A DNA stretch of 64,000 nucleotides. Origin: Apostichopus japonicus. Taxonomy: Eukaryota; Echinodermata; Holothuroidea; Aspidochirotida; Stichopodidae. Of the stretch, positions 6,742 through 32,446 are shown one piece after another. Location of the stretch: assembly GCF_037975245.1 (NCBI RefSeq), contig NC_092561.1, positions 8,858,501 through 8,922,500 of the forward strand. The letters are read 5' to 3'. A model generated the notes under the pieces. It made no database searches. It was not told the origin of the DNA and saw nothing but the letters and a program-made list of their open reading frames with translations. The first letter of the stretch is position 1. Each line of letters starts with the position of its first letter. The position numbers were made by a program, and so were the translations under genes.

Positions 6742-7929
6742 TACCCGAGATGTTGCCATATTTCACAAGGAAGGCATTTCAATTGCAGTAAGACCTTGAT
6801 ATCGTAAGGCACAGTTTGTATTGTGGCCTATTAATTAGCAACGAATCTGATGAAATATATGATGTTGAGGCAGTTTTTTTTTACCATAACTTCCTTTAAT
6901 TGACGAATTGCTACCCAAAATGGGTTTATCAATGTGTGATCAATTCTAACAACTATTTCTTTTTCTTGTCACTGCATGTTTATCGGAAAATTGATTTTAA
7001 TAAACTTTTCACCTTCTTACTAGATGTATATGGAAAGTCCATTGTTATTGTTTTGCATTCGCGGTACACTTAACGCATCATGTTTCTGGTCAGTGAGAAT
7101 CTGCTAACATTGACATCAAATATCTTTAAATTACTGATTCTTTCGACGTAAAAAGAACCACAGTTTTGTTTGTGAACTCAATACCTTGAGTATGAAAAAG
7201 AAAAAGGATTTTTTTCTGCTGCCAACAGTGGATTTTAAAGTTAGAGGGCAACACACTTAAAGCCTTTGTTATTGACAACCTCCAAACGTATCCCTGCTGG
7301 GTTTGAGACATTTAATTTGATTGTGTACCAATCACCATTTGTGAGGCCTATGTTTGCCTAACTTTGATAGCCACTTGGTCTAACTGCTACTGTCCGTGTT
7401 ATGCCTACTGAACTGCCTAGCATATCACTAGGCCTAGCCTACTGTAACTTGTTAGCCAGTCGGAGTCCGGACTACTGACACTGTACACACTTGTGGATCA
7501 AACATATAATCACATAGGTTACTGACATTAGTTTACAAACTTACTGTATTGGTGATTGTCTCCAATCGCACATAGTTTCAATCACTTGCAGTTGATGATT
7601 ATTCTACTCAACATTATTTCGTTGGGTCTCGTAAGAGCAAAACCTTTGAAGTTAGGGAAATGTACAATCCAGGGCTACCATAGGACTGGTATTACTGTAA
7701 TAAACACAGATGATTACCTTTCAATTCAGTACGTTCGGTGTATAGTTCTTACGGGAAAACCTTCTGTTTATAGCTCCATGTACAAAGCAAATCTTGTCGC
7801 TTGTTATGTAACGTCCTGTCCACAAGTGACGTCACGACATGCTCATTGCGCAATCACATGAATCAAACAGAATGGTCCACATACGGAAAAGCCGTATGTA
7901 CTGCATGCTCTGGTCACACACAGAGCACC
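6742..7929. other. No supported gene
   Basis: One 101-codon frame (7556-7861, plus) starts with a hydrophobic stretch resembling a signal peptide. It matches no family I know, has no partner exon that I could find and overlaps other frames. I do not call it a gene. Confidence 0.4.
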
Positions 7930-7940
7930 TATGGCGGGCC

Positions 7941-8946
7941 GCGAATATTTTTTTCCCAAACTGAACTGACACTGAAATTATTTCCTCGATTCTGATTGGT
8001 TATCAGCGAGCACGTGATATACTTTAGTTTTCAACATGGATCCTCCATAATCTGTCGATATCAGTATGATCAACACAATCAAATTCAAGATATTAACATT
8101 AGCAACTTTCCAGAACTTTTAGTAGGTATATTTGAACGAAAGTATAGAGTGAAGCAACTATTCCCAACTACTGCGCCCATTATAGGCAGTCCTCGTTCGT
8201 TTGTTTACTCGCTTGACTCCGCTCTACGCAACACATACATGTAATGTAGCCTATTGTACTGTGTATAGTATACAACACAATAACACACAGTGCATTTGTA
8301 ATTGTATACATGTAGCCGATGTACATATGTACCGTGGTGTTTGGTTGCGATACTTTTAGTTTTATAATCATAAATTCAAAATGTATTCAGTCAATGAATC
8401 ATGATAGGCCTATTCGAATATGTAGTGGCCATGAAGACGCGCGAGCGAGTGTGTGTCAGCCAGTGAGTGTACACAAACATGGCATTTGACGATATGTCTG
8501 TGTCTTTTGACTTGTTAACTAGTTGTATATAGCATTATAACCTATACGTACGTAACCACATATGTTTACCTGCACAATTAGAAGTTCTTATACATGGTGA
8601 CATAGTAGGCCTGCATTAACCGTATATACGTATTCGTACTAGTTCGTACGAGATCTCAAATTCACTAATATAGGCCCTACCGCCCTTGCAGTAGCTCTTG
8701 ATAACTGGAAGCCTCACATTGTATCTACATGTAGGCACACTTAGGCCTACATACTTTAACTTAGCCTGTATATGGCGTACACACGTATTTTTGACATGAT
8801 GCGGCCCATGAGGATTGGTATGATCAACACTAACAGTGTCACATACATTCATTCATAAACGCCGACTACCATTCCGGTTTTGATCAGCCAATCAGAATCG
8901 AGGAAATAATTTCAGTGTCAGTTCAGTTTGGGAAAAAAATATTCGC
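7941..8946. mobile_element. Element 1: long-TIR non-autonomous transposon, 1006 bp
   Basis: The termini are perfect inverted repeats of about 59 bp (7941-7999 and 8888-8946). They start GCGAATATTTTTTTCCC and run through CTGAACTGACACTG to CTCGATTCTGATTGG. Both sides carry the 9-bp direct repeat TGGCGGGCC. Long TIRs with a 9-bp duplication fit Mutator-like (MULE) non-autonomous elements. That family assignment is an inference from structure only. The interior has no recognised frame. Confidence 0.75.
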
Positions 8947-8955
8947 TGGCGGGCC

Positions 8956-9990
8956 GCGAATTTCTTTTTCCTGAACCTTTCGGGCAGTGTACGTGGAGTT
9001 TAGCCAATCAGAGCGAGGCTGTGTTGATGACGTACTACAGTAAAGATAGCGGCGTGCTTACCAAATGTTGAAGTGCATGGGGAAATCACATTCGATAAGT
9101 CAACATAATTGTTGTACTACAGCAGAAAGTATTGAGTTATATAGGTCTTGCACTAATAACATTATACTGAATCATTGTGCACAACTTACGTGACGTTTGC
9201 ATCGGTTTTTGTTGAAAAACGGCGATGTATGATCGCTGTCTGATGTACAAATTTACAATGTCTTCAGATTGACATGACACTGTACTCAGTACTGTAGTAC
9301 TGGTACAGTAGTATGTTACGTACTTACAGTTTACACACATCTACACAGCAATATTTGTACACAGGGGTACAGTCCTATAGCACCTCCTTGTGAGAGACGA
9401 GGTCCAGTAATTAACGGTTTATTGTGGAAACTGCCAAATGTTTGTTGTAAACTGATGAGCGAATTAGGTAAATAAGAGTGCAAGTACTGCCCTTGTTTTA
9501 TTATGCAATAAATCCTCTCTCTTTAATTGTTCCAGAATGAATATCTGTTTCCCTTGTCTTTTATTCTAGCAAGTCATCTGCCTTTAAATTAAGATAAACT
9601 TTCCTAAAACGGATGTACCACATTTTGGGGCTGAGACCGATTTCCCTCTAATAAGATCTAGAAGGAATATAAACAAAAGAAACTATATATATTTTCGCCA
9701 CACTATCTACGGAGATGACCATGCACTAAAACCATGACATAACTTATAATATCGATTTTCAATTCATGATATAATACTTGGACATAACTACTTGAACATG
9801 AGAAAAAGTGGGGGGAAAATCCACACCGGGGCTCGAACTCGCGCTCTTTCGTTTTCCACCTTATGTTATTGAGGGGACGCATTTACCCGACTGACCATCT
9901 TTACTGAGTAGTACGTCATCAACACAGCCTCGCTCTGATTGGCTAAACTCCACGTACACTGCCCGAAAGGTTCAGGAAAAAGAAATTCGC
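8956..9990. mobile_element. Element 2: long-TIR non-autonomous transposon, 1035 bp
   Basis: Perfect inverted repeats of 83 bp (8956-9038 and 9908-9990) start GCGAATTTCTTTTTCC and include GCCAATCAGAGCGAGG and GTTGATGACGTACTAC. It is flanked on both sides by TGGCGGGCC. It shares the terminal GCGAAT and an adjacent T-rich tract with element 1, so both may use the same kind of transposase. A tRNA-like sequence lies just inside the right arm. The near-identity of the arms argues for a recent insertion. Confidence 0.8.
9815..9905 (-). repeat. tRNA-like segment inside element 2
   Basis: On the minus strand an A-box-like TGGTCAGTCGGG is followed about 50 bases later by a B-box-like GAGTTCGAGCCCCGG. 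These are the two internal RNA polymerase III promoter blocks of tRNA genes. The acceptor ends do not pair convincingly, so I read it as a SINE head or captured tRNA-derived sequence, not a working tRNA gene. Confidence 0.5.
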
Positions 9991-10370
9991 TGGCGGGCCA
10001 TCAGTCTCAAATCATGGGAGATCGACTTATACCGATTTAAATCGACATATACCAGTTTCCTTCGACATATACCAGTTTCCCTCGACTTATACCAGTTTCA
10101 TTCTACATATCATCGATTTATTTTACTTATCATCGATTTAAATCGATGATAAGTAAAATAAATCGATGATATGTCGAAGTAAACTGGTATATGTCGATTT
10201 AAATCGATGATATGTAGAATGAAACTGGTATATGTCGATTTAAATCGATGATATGTAGAATGAAACTGGTATAAGTCGAAGGAAACTGGTATATGTCGAA
10301 GGAAACTGGTATATGTCGATTTAAATCGGTATAAGTCGATCTCCCATGATTTGAGACTGATGGCCCGCCA
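9991..10370. mobile_element. Element 3: palindromic (foldback) MITE with TA flanks
   Basis: The sequence is an almost perfect hairpin centred at 10140/10141, in ATCGATTTAAATCGAT. Both arms end in TGGCGGGCCATCAGTCTCAA (reverse complemented on the right). The right arm is about 80 bp longer because modules such as ACTGGTATATGTCGATTTAA are repeated. It has no coding capacity. As single-stranded RNA or DNA it would form a very long stem, so it is a plausible small-RNA source. Confidence 0.85.
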
Positions 10371-10396
10371 TAAGCACCAACATTATCATCAGTTTT

Positions 10397-10609
10397 GTAC
10401 GGCGGTCATAAGGTGACATGCGAGATATTGAATTTTTATCGAGACACCGAGTTACGCTAATTTGACGTCTCGGTAAAATTTGTGAAAACGTCGAGTTGCT
10501 ATGTTACACATGACTCGGCATCTCGACAAAAATCAACATTTTGTCGAGATGACGTGTTATTCTAACAAGGTAACTCTACATCTCGTATGTCACCTAATGA
10601 CCGCCGTAC
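10397..10609. mobile_element. Short MITE with about 30-bp TIRs
   Basis: The left end GTACGGCGGTCATAAGGTGA matches the reverse complement of the right end, GTACGGCGGTCATTAGGTGA, and the match runs on through CATGCGAGAT / CATACGAGAT. The interior has further inverted words (GTCGAGAT, ATCTCGAC). It lies 26 bp beyond the nested array. No clear target duplication was seen. Confidence 0.75.
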
Positions 10610-15822: not shown

Positions 15823-16356
15823 TCAGTGACTGTGCTGAAAATACCGGGCGGAGTAAACACCTGGTTGGGCTGTCTGTGGTGGTGCTTCACGTCTCATTTT
15901 ACAGATATATGGTAACGGTTCACCACATGGTAGCATCACCCAGGTAGATGTTGGGAACTCACCAGGCATTGCGCCACAATCGGCAGGTCCGGGTTGGCCT
16001 GTGGCCCAGCTTCGGAAAGGGCTAACGCTATTATCGGTCCACACGTATTCACCCTCAACCGCGATATCGTTCAAACCGATCCATGCGGCTTCTGGTGGTA
16101 ACTCTGCGCTAAGACTCTCGATGTAGCGGTAGAGGAAATCGTTTTCTTTTTCGGTTTCACTGGACGCCAGATGAGCTAAATCTCCCGAACAGCTTGAGAA
16201 TTGGTTGCAAAAATATTCTGCTACGACGTACCTCCTAGGAAAGCCGAAATAACGGTAACAGTGATCCCCGTGCACAGTCCAGTATGGCGGACAGCACGTA
16301 GCGACCCCGCCGGCTATACATAAAGCAACACACAGTAGAAAAATATAGACCTTCAT
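15823..16356 (-). CDS. Secreted C-type lectin-like protein, single exon (lectin 1)
   Basis: A 177-residue protein. I chose the ATG at 16356 because it begins a typical signal peptide (MKVYIFLLCVALCIAGGVA); the frame is open 33 codons upstream but that part is not signal-like. One C-type lectin domain follows: CPPYW (22-26), Cys33, Cys50, Cys56, the WIGLND core (92-97), Cys127, Cys144 and YIC (150-152). The calcium site is degenerate. The EPN/QPD position is QPG (121-123), the usual Glu before the third-last Cys is replaced (ADC, 125-127), and WND is WVM (139-141). Calcium-dependent sugar binding is therefore unlikely, and it may bind another ligand. A short tail rich in Pro, Gln and Ser follows. 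Unlike its two neighbours it has no intron in the domain. Function is inferred: an extracellular recognition protein, perhaps of coelomic fluid. Confidence 0.9.
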   Translation of the reverse strand: MKVYIFLLCVALCIAGGVATCCPPYWTVHGDHCYRYFGFPRRYVVAEYFCNQFSSCSGDLAHLASSETEKENDFLYRYIESLSAELPPEAAWIGLNDIAVEGEYVWTDNSVSPFRSWATGQPGPADCGAMPGEFPTSTWVMLPCGEPLPYICKMRREAPPQTAQPGVYSARYFQHSH

Positions 16357-17699
16357 CTTAGTAAGGGTTTTTGATTTCACTAAATTATTTTTTTGGCGAT
16401 GGTTTCGACAGTAAAGCCACAATGTGAATGCTTCGAATTTTGATGGAAATCGCAACCTCGCTATCTACCAAGATGGTTTCCTTATAATTCAACGTCCTGT
16501 CGAGTACAAAGTTAATAAGGGAGGAGCCAGCTAGTTCATCATAATATAATTTAAATATGGAGCATCTCTATGGAACGCCCTTCTGTGAGCAAGTTTAACT
16601 ACCTGTCGATAAAAGGCTAGTCTATCCGGTGATAATTAATGGAAGTTAAGACCTGGGGATTTATTTTCGTAGCGAGAAAAAATAAAAATCCAAACTGAAA
16701 ACTAGAAACCGAACTTGAGGGCTTCAAAGGAGTCGTAATTAACAGGGAAGGCAAAAATTATAGAAGTGATGATAAAGTTGATTAACAGACGGTACAATGA
16801 CAATTAAATTTTCTTTTAAACGTCTCTCTAACTGTTTTAAGACACAGAATTTAATTATCATTTAGTCTTTCCTCGGTTTGAGGCTGGACTACAGAGATAG
16901 TATAAACAACTTTGTTTTAATTTGATCATCACAAGTTATATAAAAGCAAAATATGATTGGAAAAAAATTTAACAAGGGAAGAAATTGCATTACCAACTTA
17001 ATAATACTTAAAACCATAAAAAATTAGTATGCCTCAAAACAGGATATAACTTTTAATGCTGACCTTCTGGATACTTGGAGGGGTCAGGGGTACCTGGATG
17101 GAAAGAGAGAGAGGAGCGCGAAAACAGAAATAATATATTACGTATAGTTTACTCAAAACATGTACTAACCGATTCTGGGTGTGCACAATTTTAATGGGGG
17201 CAGGGGTTGGTATATAGCTGGATGAACAAAATAGTTCATTAGGGAGACGTTTACAATTAATATATTCCAGGGTATCTTAAAGCTAACACAAGTTCAAGGT
17301 AATCAGTACTTCCGCCCCGACCCCCCCCCACACACACACCCTCCCACTTCCCCACCCTCCGAGTAGTAGTTTACGAACTACTGCTCCAACTATCCTGGGG
17401 ATCCTTATATCCTCCAATTTATTTCTACATAGTGTAATTGGTGAATTTTAGACAACTTAATGTCTCAGTAAAGAGAACATGTTCTGACGGGTTTCAATCA
17501 AGTGGTAACATATAAGGGGGTAATTCTTTTTTACGTATCTGACCCTTTGTCGGGTCTGTATATAATATTTGGAGGTAATACAGAAGATCTGTGACAGGGA
17601 CAAGGAATTTCTATTTTTTTTGGGGGGGGGGGGATTTTTCAGCTTAAAGGATGACCATGGCCTGAGTAACTAACACGTACGTGCTACAATTTACATTTA
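16357..17699. other. Upstream of lectin 1; no gene seen
   Basis: AT-rich sequence that should hold the minus-strand promoter and 5' untranslated region of lectin 1. An AT-rich TATTTAAATTATA-like word lies near 16545-16558 on the minus strand, but I would not call a promoter on it. C-runs and CA-runs occur at 17320-17345. Confidence 0.35.
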
Positions 17700-27463: not shown

Positions 27464-30300
27464 TTAGACGAAATTTGGGTTCCTTCCTCCAGGGCCTCCT
27501 GGCCCTGTGGGTGGCATCTGGGGTGCAGTTTGTGGTGTCTCGTATGGCATCATACAGAAGAAAGGGAGGGTCAGTTGGCATTGGACATCGTCCCACCCAT
27601 TCAGAGCCGGAGAATACATGACGCAATTCTGGGATTGTACCCCGGATGCTTGACCATTGTCAGGCTGTCCGACAGCGAAGTTTTTGTAAACTAAGGGATC
27701 ACCGTTGGACCAAGTAAACATACCTTCTTGTCTGCAAACGTTAAAGAGAGTAAGAGAGGGTTAAATAAAACAAACCATCAAAGAGAAGAACTGTTAACGT
27801 ATGCAAATGAGGTCAGCTATGTTCACAACTTAAAGGTCATCATAATCCCCACCACACCCCCTCCCCCCAAAAAATATAAATTTTAATAATTGTCACCCAT
27901 ATTTAAATTTATAAGGCATCTCATTGCCAGGCTCAAAACATAATGTTGTCTCTCTTAGATATTTAATTGTCATTTTTTATATATTTTTTTATCATTTAAC
28001 TTGAACACTCCACAATACCTGTGTACTATGAGGAGGAGTCCAAATCTACACTACATTAACAGCGATCACCTGATCGTCACGTGATCACGTTCACAAGAGT
28101 GTAGTCGTTTCATCAACATATAATATTTTCATATGACTGTAAGTAATGTAGAAGACATCCCTTACATTCTACCATTTATTATTATATTGTTAACTTTATT
28201 AGTTGTACATAACTTGGTAATTTTAAAGTTTAAAACGCATTTTGTGTTGACTAGGCCTATATATTTCTAGCCTCAATAATCCTCGAATCTTTCTTTAATA
28301 CTTTGTGAATGCATTTCCAGTACTAATGCAATGGTACATGAAATTATTCTCATTGAGTTCGTGAAGAGTTATTTCTTCTCCTGTAGTTATATGAAGAAAA
28401 AAAAAAGATAAAATGATAACGAAAAAGAAAACGTGTTGTGATTTAATAAGTAACATTATGACAAAATATATCCACAATTGTATGTTCTCGATGTGAACGC
28501 CCTCTCTTTCACTGAAATATTCATGCGCATAGCATTAACCCTTACGTCATCTAACTCAACAGGTCCAAAATGATGATGCCATCTAGAAACACATTCGCTT
28601 ATGCAAATTTCGAAATCAAAAACAAACGGTCATTTCTATTTTAATATTAAATCATACTTTTACAACTTCAAAATCATATTTTAAGTAATATGTTATTTCC
28701 TGGCTGGGTGGCGGGGTGGTGGTAGCGATTTGGAGGGTTTAACGCACTTAAGAGAGGAAAATACATTATACGAGAGGAAGTAAAGTATATCTACATTTTG
28801 AATTATTACTCCGCTTGAATCGATTAGAGTAGCTGTCATACGTAGAGCAGTATAATTATAAAACGGTATAACTTAGTACGCTGTGGCGAGGTGGGGGGGG
28901 GGGGGGGTTGAGGGGGTGGGGGGTTGGAGGTTCGAATTACGATGGGTTTAGAGGTGTAGCAATAGGCGGCTCATTGAACCAGGGCCCACGTTCCGATAAT
29001 AAAGGATCACAGTTACCTTGCAAGTATAAGGTAGCCAAAAAAACAAACATTTTCTTTTTATACAGTTATGGCTCTGTGTCGAGTGCAATTTGGATGTCAA
29101 GTAAGTGAATTCTCGCTGTTTGAATTCAGAGTGCAGTTTGAAATACTCAAGATCTAACTACAAATCTTTCACAGGGTGTGTACAAGCATGTGACCGGTAT
29201 TCTATACCCTATATGATACATCAAAATCGGCGGTGAATTTGAGCACCCAATTATCAACATCCGAGTCCCCGTTAGGAAGCGTTCTTTTCTTTTTGGTGGA
29301 GAATATATGCGAAGGACTTCCATTCGTGTGTTTATAGAAATGCACATTCAGTCTGATATATTCTTGCTATTCAGCTAAACTGTGACAATATGGTGATTTA
29401 AAGGCATTGAAGAATCGCGCACAAAGAAACGTATGATGCCGGTAATCTGACCTAGTTTCGAATGAGGTGTAACAGATGTGTTAGACACCACCATCGATCC
29501 CAGAAAATACACACACAGCTTGCTACCGTCGGTAATTAGACACTAGGGTACAGTCAATACATACAGCTACGGTCAATACCCACAACAGAGTGTACATAGC
29601 AGCAATGGACATCTCAGGTCTAGATGAAAGATACCAAGGTATCACGTTTCATTACTGTCTGCATTTTGTAGCGACAAGAAAGAAAAAACTTCACGTGCAA
29701 GCTACGGAAAGTTAACTTTTTCAGAGGGCGGCACGCGGTTTGGGGCGAGTCTTCAATGCCTTTAAGCTATATGTGAATCTGAATACTCAATTATTGGAAT
29801 GGATTCCAAACTCCATATAACGTTCGCACTATAGAACGCCAAATTATTTAAATATATCGACTGAAAATGCAAAACCAAATTTAGGCTTTTTAAAGTGGAC
29901 GATGGCAATTGCACGGTTGGATTGCTGTATTGATGAATGTACAATCAGGCGGCTTAAAAGAGACTAACGTAAATGATGTATATATATATACTTACGTGAT
30001 ATCATTCAATCCAATCCAGACATCTTGCGCAGGTGGTTGAGCCACGAGATTGCCTAAAACTGTCTTGATGAAACTCTCCGCGGTCCTGTCGGCGACAATA
30101 GATAGACTACCGATCTCAACGCCGTTACAGGGAGCAAACTGGGCACATGTAGCCTCGGCATCGGCGTATGAAAGAGGATCTGGGAAATATCTCCAGCAAA
30201 ACTTGCCGATACCTGTCCAAAAGGGTGGACATGATGGTCTCTCTGGACCATGGCCATATACAACTAACGGTAGTAAGGCAATAGCGATTAAAAACTTCAT
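27464..30300 (-). CDS. Secreted C-type lectin, two exons (lectin 3)
   Basis: Coding exons on the minus strand are 30300-29996 and 27731-27464, joined in phase 2 (GTAAGT donor, GTTTGCAG acceptor), giving 190 residues. A short signal peptide (MKFLIAIALLPLVVYG) is followed by CPPFW (24-28), Cys35, Cys52, Cys58, WIGLND (95-100), QPD (124-126), QNC (136-138), WDD (148-150), Cys153 and Cys161. QPD is the galactose-type signature of the family. However, the usual Glu before Cys138 is Gln, so calcium affinity may be reduced. The C-terminal tail (about 165-190) is Pro/Gly-rich and longer than in lectin 2. The intron splits a Thr codon just after WIGLNDI, 27 nt further along the domain than the intron of lectin 2. 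The 2264-bp intron carries a TTAA-flanked MITE. Probably an extracellular immune or recognition lectin. Confidence 0.93.
28860..28930 (+). repeat. Poly-G tract in the lectin 3 intron
   Basis: A G-run interrupted by few T residues around 28890-28922. One of many homopolymer G/C tracts in this window. Confidence 0.6.
29402..29761 (-). mobile_element. TTAA-flanked MITE, copy A (in lectin 3 intron)
   Basis: The termini are AGGCATTGAAGA and TCTTCAATGCCT, a perfect 12-bp inverted repeat, flanked by TTAA at 29398-29401 and 29762-29765. TTAA duplications are made by piggyBac and Kolobok transposases. A second copy in opposite orientation lies at 32146-32446, sharing CCAGAAAATACACACAC / GTGTGTGTATTTTCTGG and the AAAGTTAACTTT region. 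360 bp, no coding frame. Confidence 0.85.
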
Positions 30301-30448
30301 TTTTAATTGTGTCTATATCTATGTTTATTTTTTAAGTTTCTCTCGGATCTGTTCCGTATGATACCGAATCAAGAATGAATGGGAAAACTTTATCTGTGAC
30401 TTTTTTTCATTTTTCATCAATCTAAGTCCATCCCCCATGTTACTCACA

Positions 30449-30470
30449 TGCAAATGAAGGTATAAAAAGG
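30449..30470 (+). promoter_or_regulatory. Octamer plus TATA-like motif upstream of lectin 3
   Basis: ATGCAAAT, the POU-factor octamer, is followed 4 bp later by TATAAAAAGG. It lies about 150-170 bp 5' of the lectin 3 start codon. The TATA motif points away from lectin 3, and no gene is visible downstream on the plus strand. The octamer works in either orientation and could still serve lectin 3. Confidence 0.3.
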
Positions 30471-31505
30471 GGCAGTGCTCATTTACATATTAATTTTAAG
30501 GCGGAGTCATTTTTAACACCGTTGAAAGTGGTTTCCTCTCTCGTGGTTCTCGACGAAGAGCTGCAGGAACTTTTAATTTTCAAAATTGTTAATTATATAT
30601 TTCCCTAGAGGTCTGGACCAGACCTCATACAAAATTGTTTGTTAAATCCTTTAGAGGAAAATTAGTTGAAGGGCATGTGTGATAATTGAAAACGGGGTTA
30701 CAGCCGCCGAGAGAAAATTTATTTTTAGGGGAAGAGTTCGTCACAAACAAGACCAGGATGGATCAAGTTAGAACCAAAGCACGACCCTGGATGGTTCGAT
30801 AGGTCAGTTAAGGTGATAACCAACATTTAACGCTCGAGACTAAGGGAAATCAGCCATGGTTGGTTTCTATAACAAGGATGGAAGGAGCTAGGAATCGTAA
30901 TGATAGGGAAGGGGGCGGGAGGGTGGGGTGGCGGTGGGGGGGGGTAGAGACGAGACACGGCAGGATTCGCAAGAAATGAATAGACAAGACATTATTGGAT
31001 CTGTTATACGTCACTGGTTTCGAACCTCAGTAGAGATTACATCAGTGTCCATAACCTAGTCTGAACAAGGCGATGGCATGTAGAGCAGCAAACCTGGCGG
31101 TCCCTTGTTGATACATAACCGCTTTTGTCTTACAAAAACACCCGTGGAGGATTATTAATGTAAGCGCCAATAACAAGAAACAAAAACGTACAAAAGGAAA
31201 TGTGAAAGAGATATTTGTTTTTCAGTAGATCAAGTTTCCTTAAGCCTTTGCATTTTCTCATCAGACCAAAAAACAAATCCTGCTCGTTAAAAATTCAGTA
31301 GCCGATGCTTCTGACTGCGGATTGGCTTATTCCTGGTTTGACTTTCTGATTACGATCGGCTTTGAATCTAAGAAGATTAAATTTGAGAGACTTCTCCCGT
31401 TTTTTTATCTTCCAGATTAATTTCAACCTTTTAAAGGGTAACAGTGTATCACAATATTATCACTGAATAAGTTTAAATTTGTGCATTTGGGTACCAATGT
31501 ACGTC
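30471..31505. other. No gene recognised
   Basis: Unrecognised AT-rich DNA with a G-rich patch at 30908-30950. Confidence 0.4.
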
Positions 31506-31506
31506 T

Positions 31507-31650
<144 letters not shown>

Positions 31651-32145
31651 AATTTATTAGCATGCTTTGCATTATTAGCATTTCAAAACTAGGTAAAATA
31701 GGATGCATTGAAAATAGGAATTCTGATATTGAAGAAATTTGCGTTCAGTAAATACAGTAGTTTCGAATAATTTAAGATAATCGGGGTTTTTTTCATCCGC
31801 GTCGTGCTATTTTAATCCGATTCCGTTGTACCTATATATTTATATATACGTACCCAGTGCTGGGTAAAATATTTTGTCCAACTTTTTTGTTAAGAGTCTT
31901 TGTCTGTTGTGACAAGCAATCTTTGTGTTACGCTTTCCGAAAAACGGGGATCATCCTTGCAGCCCCTTGGTCCCCTCCCAGTGTTCCACAGTACACAAAT
32001 GGCAAAGATGGTTATATTTGAGGGAGAAAAGAGTATGTTTCATTAAGTGTAAATTGAACTAGAGCAGCAATGCTGTAGAATCTCACTACTATTTAGTTGT
32101 GAGCTTGTACTTAAATGCGCATGGTCAGATGCTTATCAGATTTAA

Positions 32146-32446
32146 AGGCATTGAAGACTCGCCCCAAACCGCGTGCCTCCCTCTGAAAAAGTTAACTTTC
32201 CGTTGCTTGCAAAGTGAAGTTTTTTTCTTGTCGCTACAAAATGCAGACAGTATGCACACTGTGTTGTGGGTATTGACCGTAGCTCATGTATTGACTGTAC
32301 ACTAGTGTCTAATTACCGCCGGTAGCAATCTGTGTGTGTATTTTCTGGGATCGATGGTGGTGTCTAATTCTTCTGTTACACCTAATTCGAAACTAGGTCA
32401 GATTACCGGCATCAGACGTTTATTTGTGCGCGAGTCTTCACTCCCT
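32146..32446 (+). mobile_element. TTAA-flanked MITE, copy B
   Basis: It begins AGGCATTGAAGACTCGCCCC after TTAA (32142-32145) and ends GCGAGTCTTCACTCCCT before TTAA (32447-32450). It is a diverged, shorter, inverted relative of the copy at 29402-29761. No coding frame. Confidence 0.82.

Follow-up and report, generated by a model that had tools for sequence, protein, structure and literature searches.

A three-transposon nest at a re-used palindromic 9-bp target in the sea cucumber Apostichopus japonicus

Results

The window analysed here is a stretch of 64,000 nucleotides of the Apostichopus japonicus genome (C1:8858501-8922500; C, contig). It contains a nest of three transposons, E1, E2 and E3, laid out as follows.

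7924..7929, + strand: left target duplication of E3, AGCACC, 6 bp
7930..7940, + strand: left tip of E3, TATGGCGGGCC, separated from the remaining E3 by both insertions
7932..7940, + strand: target copy 1, TGGCGGGCC
7941..8946, + strand: E1, non-autonomous terminal inverted repeat (TIR) element, 1006 bp, 59-bp perfect inverted ends
8947..8955, + strand: target copy 2 (TGGCGGGCC), common to E1 and E2
8956..9990, + strand: E2, non-autonomous TIR element, 1035 bp, 83-bp perfect inverted ends
9991..9999, + strand: target copy 3 (TGGCGGGCC), running on into the remaining E3
10000..10372, + strand: remaining E3, palindromic, units of about 20 bp; 384 bp in total including 7930-7940
10362..10370, - strand: TGGCGGGCC again, at the right tip of E3, which no insertion interrupts
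10373..10378, + strand: right target duplication of E3, AGCACC, 6 bp

The first-pass annotation had reported three direct copies of TGGCGGGCC and one in reverse complement, bracketing two different elements with long TIRs that both begin GCGAAT. All four positions are confirmed, and the inverted arms match at 59/59 bases in E1 and 83/83 in E2. The 9-mer has four matches in the window, whereas 100 shuffles gave 0.06 on average and never more than 1. E3, 384 bp from TATGGCGGGCC to GGCCCGCCATA, is split by E1 and E2 11 bp from its left end; between 9991 and 10370 its arms are 130 bp long and 99% complementary. The TA said to flank the nest is present, but it belongs to E3 itself: the palindrome continues across it, with AGCACC immediately beyond each end. 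Adjoining the nest, at 10397-10609, is a further inverted-repeat element with 38-bp arms, 87% complementary, that starts GTACGGCGGTCAT, and a 2.47-kb inverted-repeat pair with ends TTTCAGAGGGCGGCA occupies 29719-32188. The window also holds a C-type lectin frame (15823-16464, - strand), whose solved-structure matches include the sea cucumber lectins CEL-I and CEL-IV.

The first-pass annotation had read E3 as a TA-type MITE, which the rest of the family contradicts. A query of the genome with E3 gave 608 first-look candidates. All ten other copies with both ends read have a perfect 6-bp duplication outside their TA..TA ends, although two of the ten (C4, C19) share flanks and represent one duplicated locus; a C13 pair was excluded from this score, its right end lying outside the piece fetched. 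In addition to these ten, CGCGAG borders a 3-kb E3-ended copy on either side, and the longest frame of this copy resembles, by eye, a reverse-transcriptase fragment. One copy on C20 has GCTACG after its right end; its left-hand GCTACG is separated from the tip by seven additional bases, TATGGCG. Judged by its ends and duplications, E3 is best classed not as a TA-duplicating MITE but as an IS3EU/GingerRoot-like palindromic non-autonomous element, which moves it to another group than the by-eye reading gave. E3-like copies also occur every ~170-570 kb near contig ends (C19:31.4-32.4 Mb, C20:0.26-1.23 Mb). These are likely large duplicated blocks; the C19 and C4 copies share flanks.

Uninterrupted E3 tips, which had been proposed as the empty sites to look for, are abundant. 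The exact tip TATGGCGGGCCATCAGTCT occurs 419 times in the genome (reversed control, 0) and 438 times when the TA is left off. In 5 of the 19 tips that lack TA, the tip is preceded by ATTCGC, an E1/E2-type end.

We then considered E1 and E2 across the 671.6-Mb assembly of 35 contigs. The query with the whole unit gave at least 126 matches and 880 first-look candidates, of which 40 were scored, so that the counts are lower bounds. Apart from the window, the long matches listed lie at 40 places, where E1 and E2 each occur without the other; the whole 2.44-kb unit is in none of the 40. We fetched 39 of these (C21:17086320 was excluded) and, before counting target site duplications (TSDs), removed three copies (L045, L046, L047) that were truncated or had damaged ends. 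Elsewhere in the genome there are 36 full-length E1 or E2 copies, 35 of which have their own perfect 9-bp duplication. With the window's two, a perfect 9-bp TSD is found in 37 of 38 copies, the remaining one (L028) being one base off. One E1 copy (L070, C3:8844680-8854500) holds what by eye is a Gypsy-type LTR retrotransposon, with LTRs identical over the 568 bp visible.

These data bear on the alternative, raised at the outset, that E1, E2 and E3 form a single composite element moving as a unit. There are no extra bases where the parts abut, as a composite would have it. Two places on C7 (L073, L074) have a common E1+E4 stretch (E4 is a third family, described below), 98.8% alike over 1552 bp, and C15 and C19 have a common stretch across a junction, 89% alike; pairs may thus sometimes be copied together, via transposition or segmental duplication. 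However, the window unit occurs once among the matches listed, against 40 other places with E1 or E2 alone, and nearly every full-length copy elsewhere carries its own duplication. A second E1-E2 pair, at C17:8.41 Mb, differs in target 9-mer and relative orientation, and its flanks are not an E3 tip. The single listed occurrence contradicts the composite reading for the window unit, and we regard that reading as very improbable.

Tabulating the 9 bp at each insertion revealed a strong target choice. The consensus of the 37 duplications, symmetrised over both strands, is RGCCSGGCY, with a mean GC content of 86%; position 4 is C and position 6 is G in 97%. A few TSDs do not conform to the palindrome (for example GGGGGGGGG and CTCCCTACA), and beyond the 9 bp there is just a mild rise in GC, 2-3 bp away. 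On the TSD matrix, which contains the window's own two sites, 10 of the 63,992 9-mers in the window score at least as high as TGGCGGGCC, and four of the ten are the copies in the nest. Re-use of single sites extends to old repeats, where one site in different copies was struck by E1 and also by E2. In one such repeat, with three copies 84-86% alike, E1 sits at one site in each as the result of independent hits; these E1 copies are each at most 0.4% from the E1 consensus, and one is oppositely oriented.

The E3 tip is itself re-used. The exact sequence TGGCGGGCCGCGAAT has seven matches in the genome, all of which were followed and which represent six loci with the exact 9-mer. Six of the matches are at E3 tips: those of E1 and E2 in the window, and one each on C3, C7, C10 and C20. 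The insert is a 4938-bp E1-family element on C3, a 9896-bp stretch made up of E1 and two nested inserts on C7, a 686-bp variant of E2 on C10, and E2 on C20. The converse pattern, ATTCGC before an E3 tip with at most one mismatch, recovered the same five loci. Thus E1- or E2-family elements lie at the same 9 bp of E3 at five loci in the genome, two deep in the window. E2 on C20 has the opposite orientation relative to E3 from that in the window and is therefore an independent insertion. The sixth locus, on C12, is not an E3 tip; here an E2-family element lies in a tandem repeat with the 9-mer in its units. Tandem repeats with TGGCGGGCC in each unit are found on C12 (L051 3700-5240) and at C1:1350581-1354479, spaced mostly 142 or 158 bp apart. 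One further candidate E3-tip insertion, L037, was rejected: its flank GGCCATCAGTCTTCAG is part of another repeat, with uninterrupted copies in L009 and L019.

Stacking on one target also occurs elsewhere in this genome. Neighbouring elements with one target copy between them were sought with the pattern ATTCGCN{7,12}GCGAATWTYTTTTTCC, which has 15 matches at ten distinct places (reversed-pattern control, 0). Eight places were fetched besides the window and C4, and six of the ten were read through, C11, C15 and C19 not being among them. The C17:8.41 Mb pair reads GCCCGGGCC-E1-GCCCGGGCC-E2-GCCCGGGCC. At C7:7.66 Mb, CACCCGGCC occurs three times with E1 and E4, and C7:3.76 Mb is probably a duplicate of this place. 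The targets are offset by 1 bp at C20:24.67 Mb (E1 and E4) and on C4, where two E1 elements lie on one site in opposite orientations. The place at C17:6.97 Mb (L075 450-2570) is irregular. Between its two E1-type elements the target copy is reverse-complemented relative to the outer ones, which suggests that the middle was inverted through recombination between the outer ends, but four extra Cs separate the right-hand target copy from its element. At C2:31387301-31387345 two GCGAAT ends face outward over a 13-bp gap, beyond the range of the pattern, possibly an eleventh tandem.

To compare this re-use with expectation, we used a position-weight model from the 37 TSDs with the 64-kb window as background, which together with an uncertain number of insertions makes the figures rough. 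Exact GCGAAT-type ends number 388 (reversed control, 1), or ~194 elements, elements with changed ends lying outside this N. Exact tandem pairs are expected 0.2-0.35 times (N 194-250) or 0.83 times (N 388), and three were observed, or four with C17:6.97 Mb; the excess is borderline with three observed and the largest N (P 0.05). For insertions in 424 E3 tips, 0.34-0.67 are expected and five were observed (P 3e-5 to 6e-4). E3 tips account for 5 of the 6 exact-9-mer insertion loci, compared with 419 of the 2833 such 9-mers (14.8%) that are exact E3 tips (P 4e-4; P 0.005 for a true share of 25%). Re-use is ~4-20 times above the rough 9-bp-preference model, an excess suggesting that something besides preference for the 9 bp may contribute.

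That excess, at the five E3-tip loci, at the three or four tandem junctions and in the share of exact-TGGCGGGCC loci, is what would be seen if E3 tips and occupied sites draw elements beyond their 9-bp preference, for instance through an end-bound transposase, the E3 hairpin or open chromatin. We treat this as a possibility of modest weight, because the 64-kb background, the 37 TSDs and the uncertain N all enter the estimate, the tandem excess is borderline at the largest N, and the same excess would come from neutral survival of insertions inside transposons. The stronger claim, that GCGAAT-ended transposons actively home to the tips of E3, a transposon of another superfamily, and to sites occupied by their own kind, guided by protein contact or DNA structure and not just by the 9 bp, we consider quite improbable.

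Placement of E1 and E2 in the Mutator superfamily, also proposed by the first-pass annotation, is plausible but unproven. Mutator-like (MULE) elements have TSDs of 8-11 bp. The 9-bp TSDs (37/38) and long perfect TIRs (59 and 83 bp) fit, but we linked no transposase to the GCGAAT ends. The MULE domain PF10551 has 38 matches in the genome, and no GCGAAT end pair encloses the MULE gene in the 2 of the 38 neighbourhoods read (5-6 kb each). On C11 an E1 with its own TSD lies ~2 kb from a MULE gene and shows no link to it. TSD length speaks against the P superfamily, for which 7-8 bp are expected compared with 9 bp here, and against Dada, whose 6-7 bp TSDs, lack of TIRs and small RNA gene targets disagree with the 9-bp TSDs and long TIRs of E1 and E2.

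Candidate autonomous partners fared no better. For the 4.9-kb E1-family element on C3, scanning 10 of its 23 frames (at least 55 aa) yielded no above-cut-off match to Pfam, and scanning two frames of the 9.9-kb stretch on C7 yielded none either. Three stretches are unsupported as partners: the 10.3-kb E1-ended stretch on C3, which contains an LTR retrotransposon; that on C7, with its nested inserts; and a 5.5-kb E1-ended stretch on C2, whose frames are all short (at most 101 aa). Among the frames and neighbourhoods read, no transposase was found for the E1/E2 group or for the E3 group.

Discussion

The boundaries of the elements, their duplications, the target preference and its independent re-use elsewhere are direct observations. 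Taken together, they make it very probable that the locus is a three-transposon nest that arose via cut-and-paste insertion with a strong palindromic target choice, in which duplication regenerates the target. The original proposal of two serial insertions at one terminal site with 9-bp duplications is thus supported. E3 would have inserted first, making its 6-bp duplication. Its tip, TGGCGGGCC, fits RGCCSGGCY, the target of what appears to be one group of GCGAAT-ended, 9-bp-duplicating TIR elements (E1, E2 and E4). E2 was probably the first of the two at this tip, and because its insertion would have duplicated the 9-mer, a usable target would be left on either side. E1 would have come next, into the outer target copy, giving T-E1-T-E2-T (T, target copy). 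Transposase supplied in trans would mobilise the elements.

The order E3, then E2, then E1 is likely, although it rests on few substitutions. E1 in the window has no substitutions relative to four other copies in the genome, although two of those four are missing 3 bp; E2 diverges from its consensus by 0.58%; and the nearest E3 copies are 91% alike over their full length. Entry of E1 before E2 would yield an identical structure. However, the unsubstituted E1 points to a recent burst and E2 bears substitutions of its own, making E1 first the unlikely order.

Nested plant MITEs that reveal an insertion preference were reportedly described by Jiang and Wessler in 2001; those elements are said to be Tourist-type, with 3-bp targets. 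Shared-target tandem insertion is already known from Dada: Dada-U1A and Dada-U1B of zebrafish are two families in tandem at one target with one target copy between them (PMC3706591), as E1 and E2 are. Dada has 6-7 bp TSDs, no TIRs and small RNA genes as targets, whereas in E1 and E2 the TSDs are 9 bp, the TIRs are long and the target is a general GC-rich palindrome. Maize Mu, a MULE, shares 9-bp TSDs and long TIRs with E1 and E2, but its consensus, SW::SWNNNNNWS::WS, is weak (PMC2774946) and RGCCSGGCY is strong. The P element likewise has a GC-rich palindromic target motif, GTCCGGAC, with TSDs of 8 bp, and 7 bp in 1360 (PMC3276498), compared with 9 bp here. Pineapple Ac-mMITEs, likely Mutator-derived, are described as piling up side by side through independent insertions at a preferred target (PMC8449440). 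However, they target a (TA)n microsatellite and form clusters described as non-nested, while E1 and E2 share one GC-rich 9-bp site. A survey gives IS256/MuDR target duplications as 4-10 bp, and IS3EU/GingerRoot elements as having TA..TA termini and TSDs usually of 6 bp (PMC10045372). E3 has such ends (TATGGCGGGCC..GGCCCGCCATA) and such a TSD but, unlike that group, is non-autonomous, with repeat units of ~20 bp and no transposase seen. A partial search of the literature found no description of these families, their target, or repeated insertion at the E3 tip.

The nest is a clean natural record of how palindromic target preference and target duplication lead to stacked transposons. The genome supplies its own controls in hundreds of unoccupied target copies, and the system lets target re-use be counted and not guessed. 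If homing were true, transposon tips would be self-renewing landing pads that spare the remaining genome.
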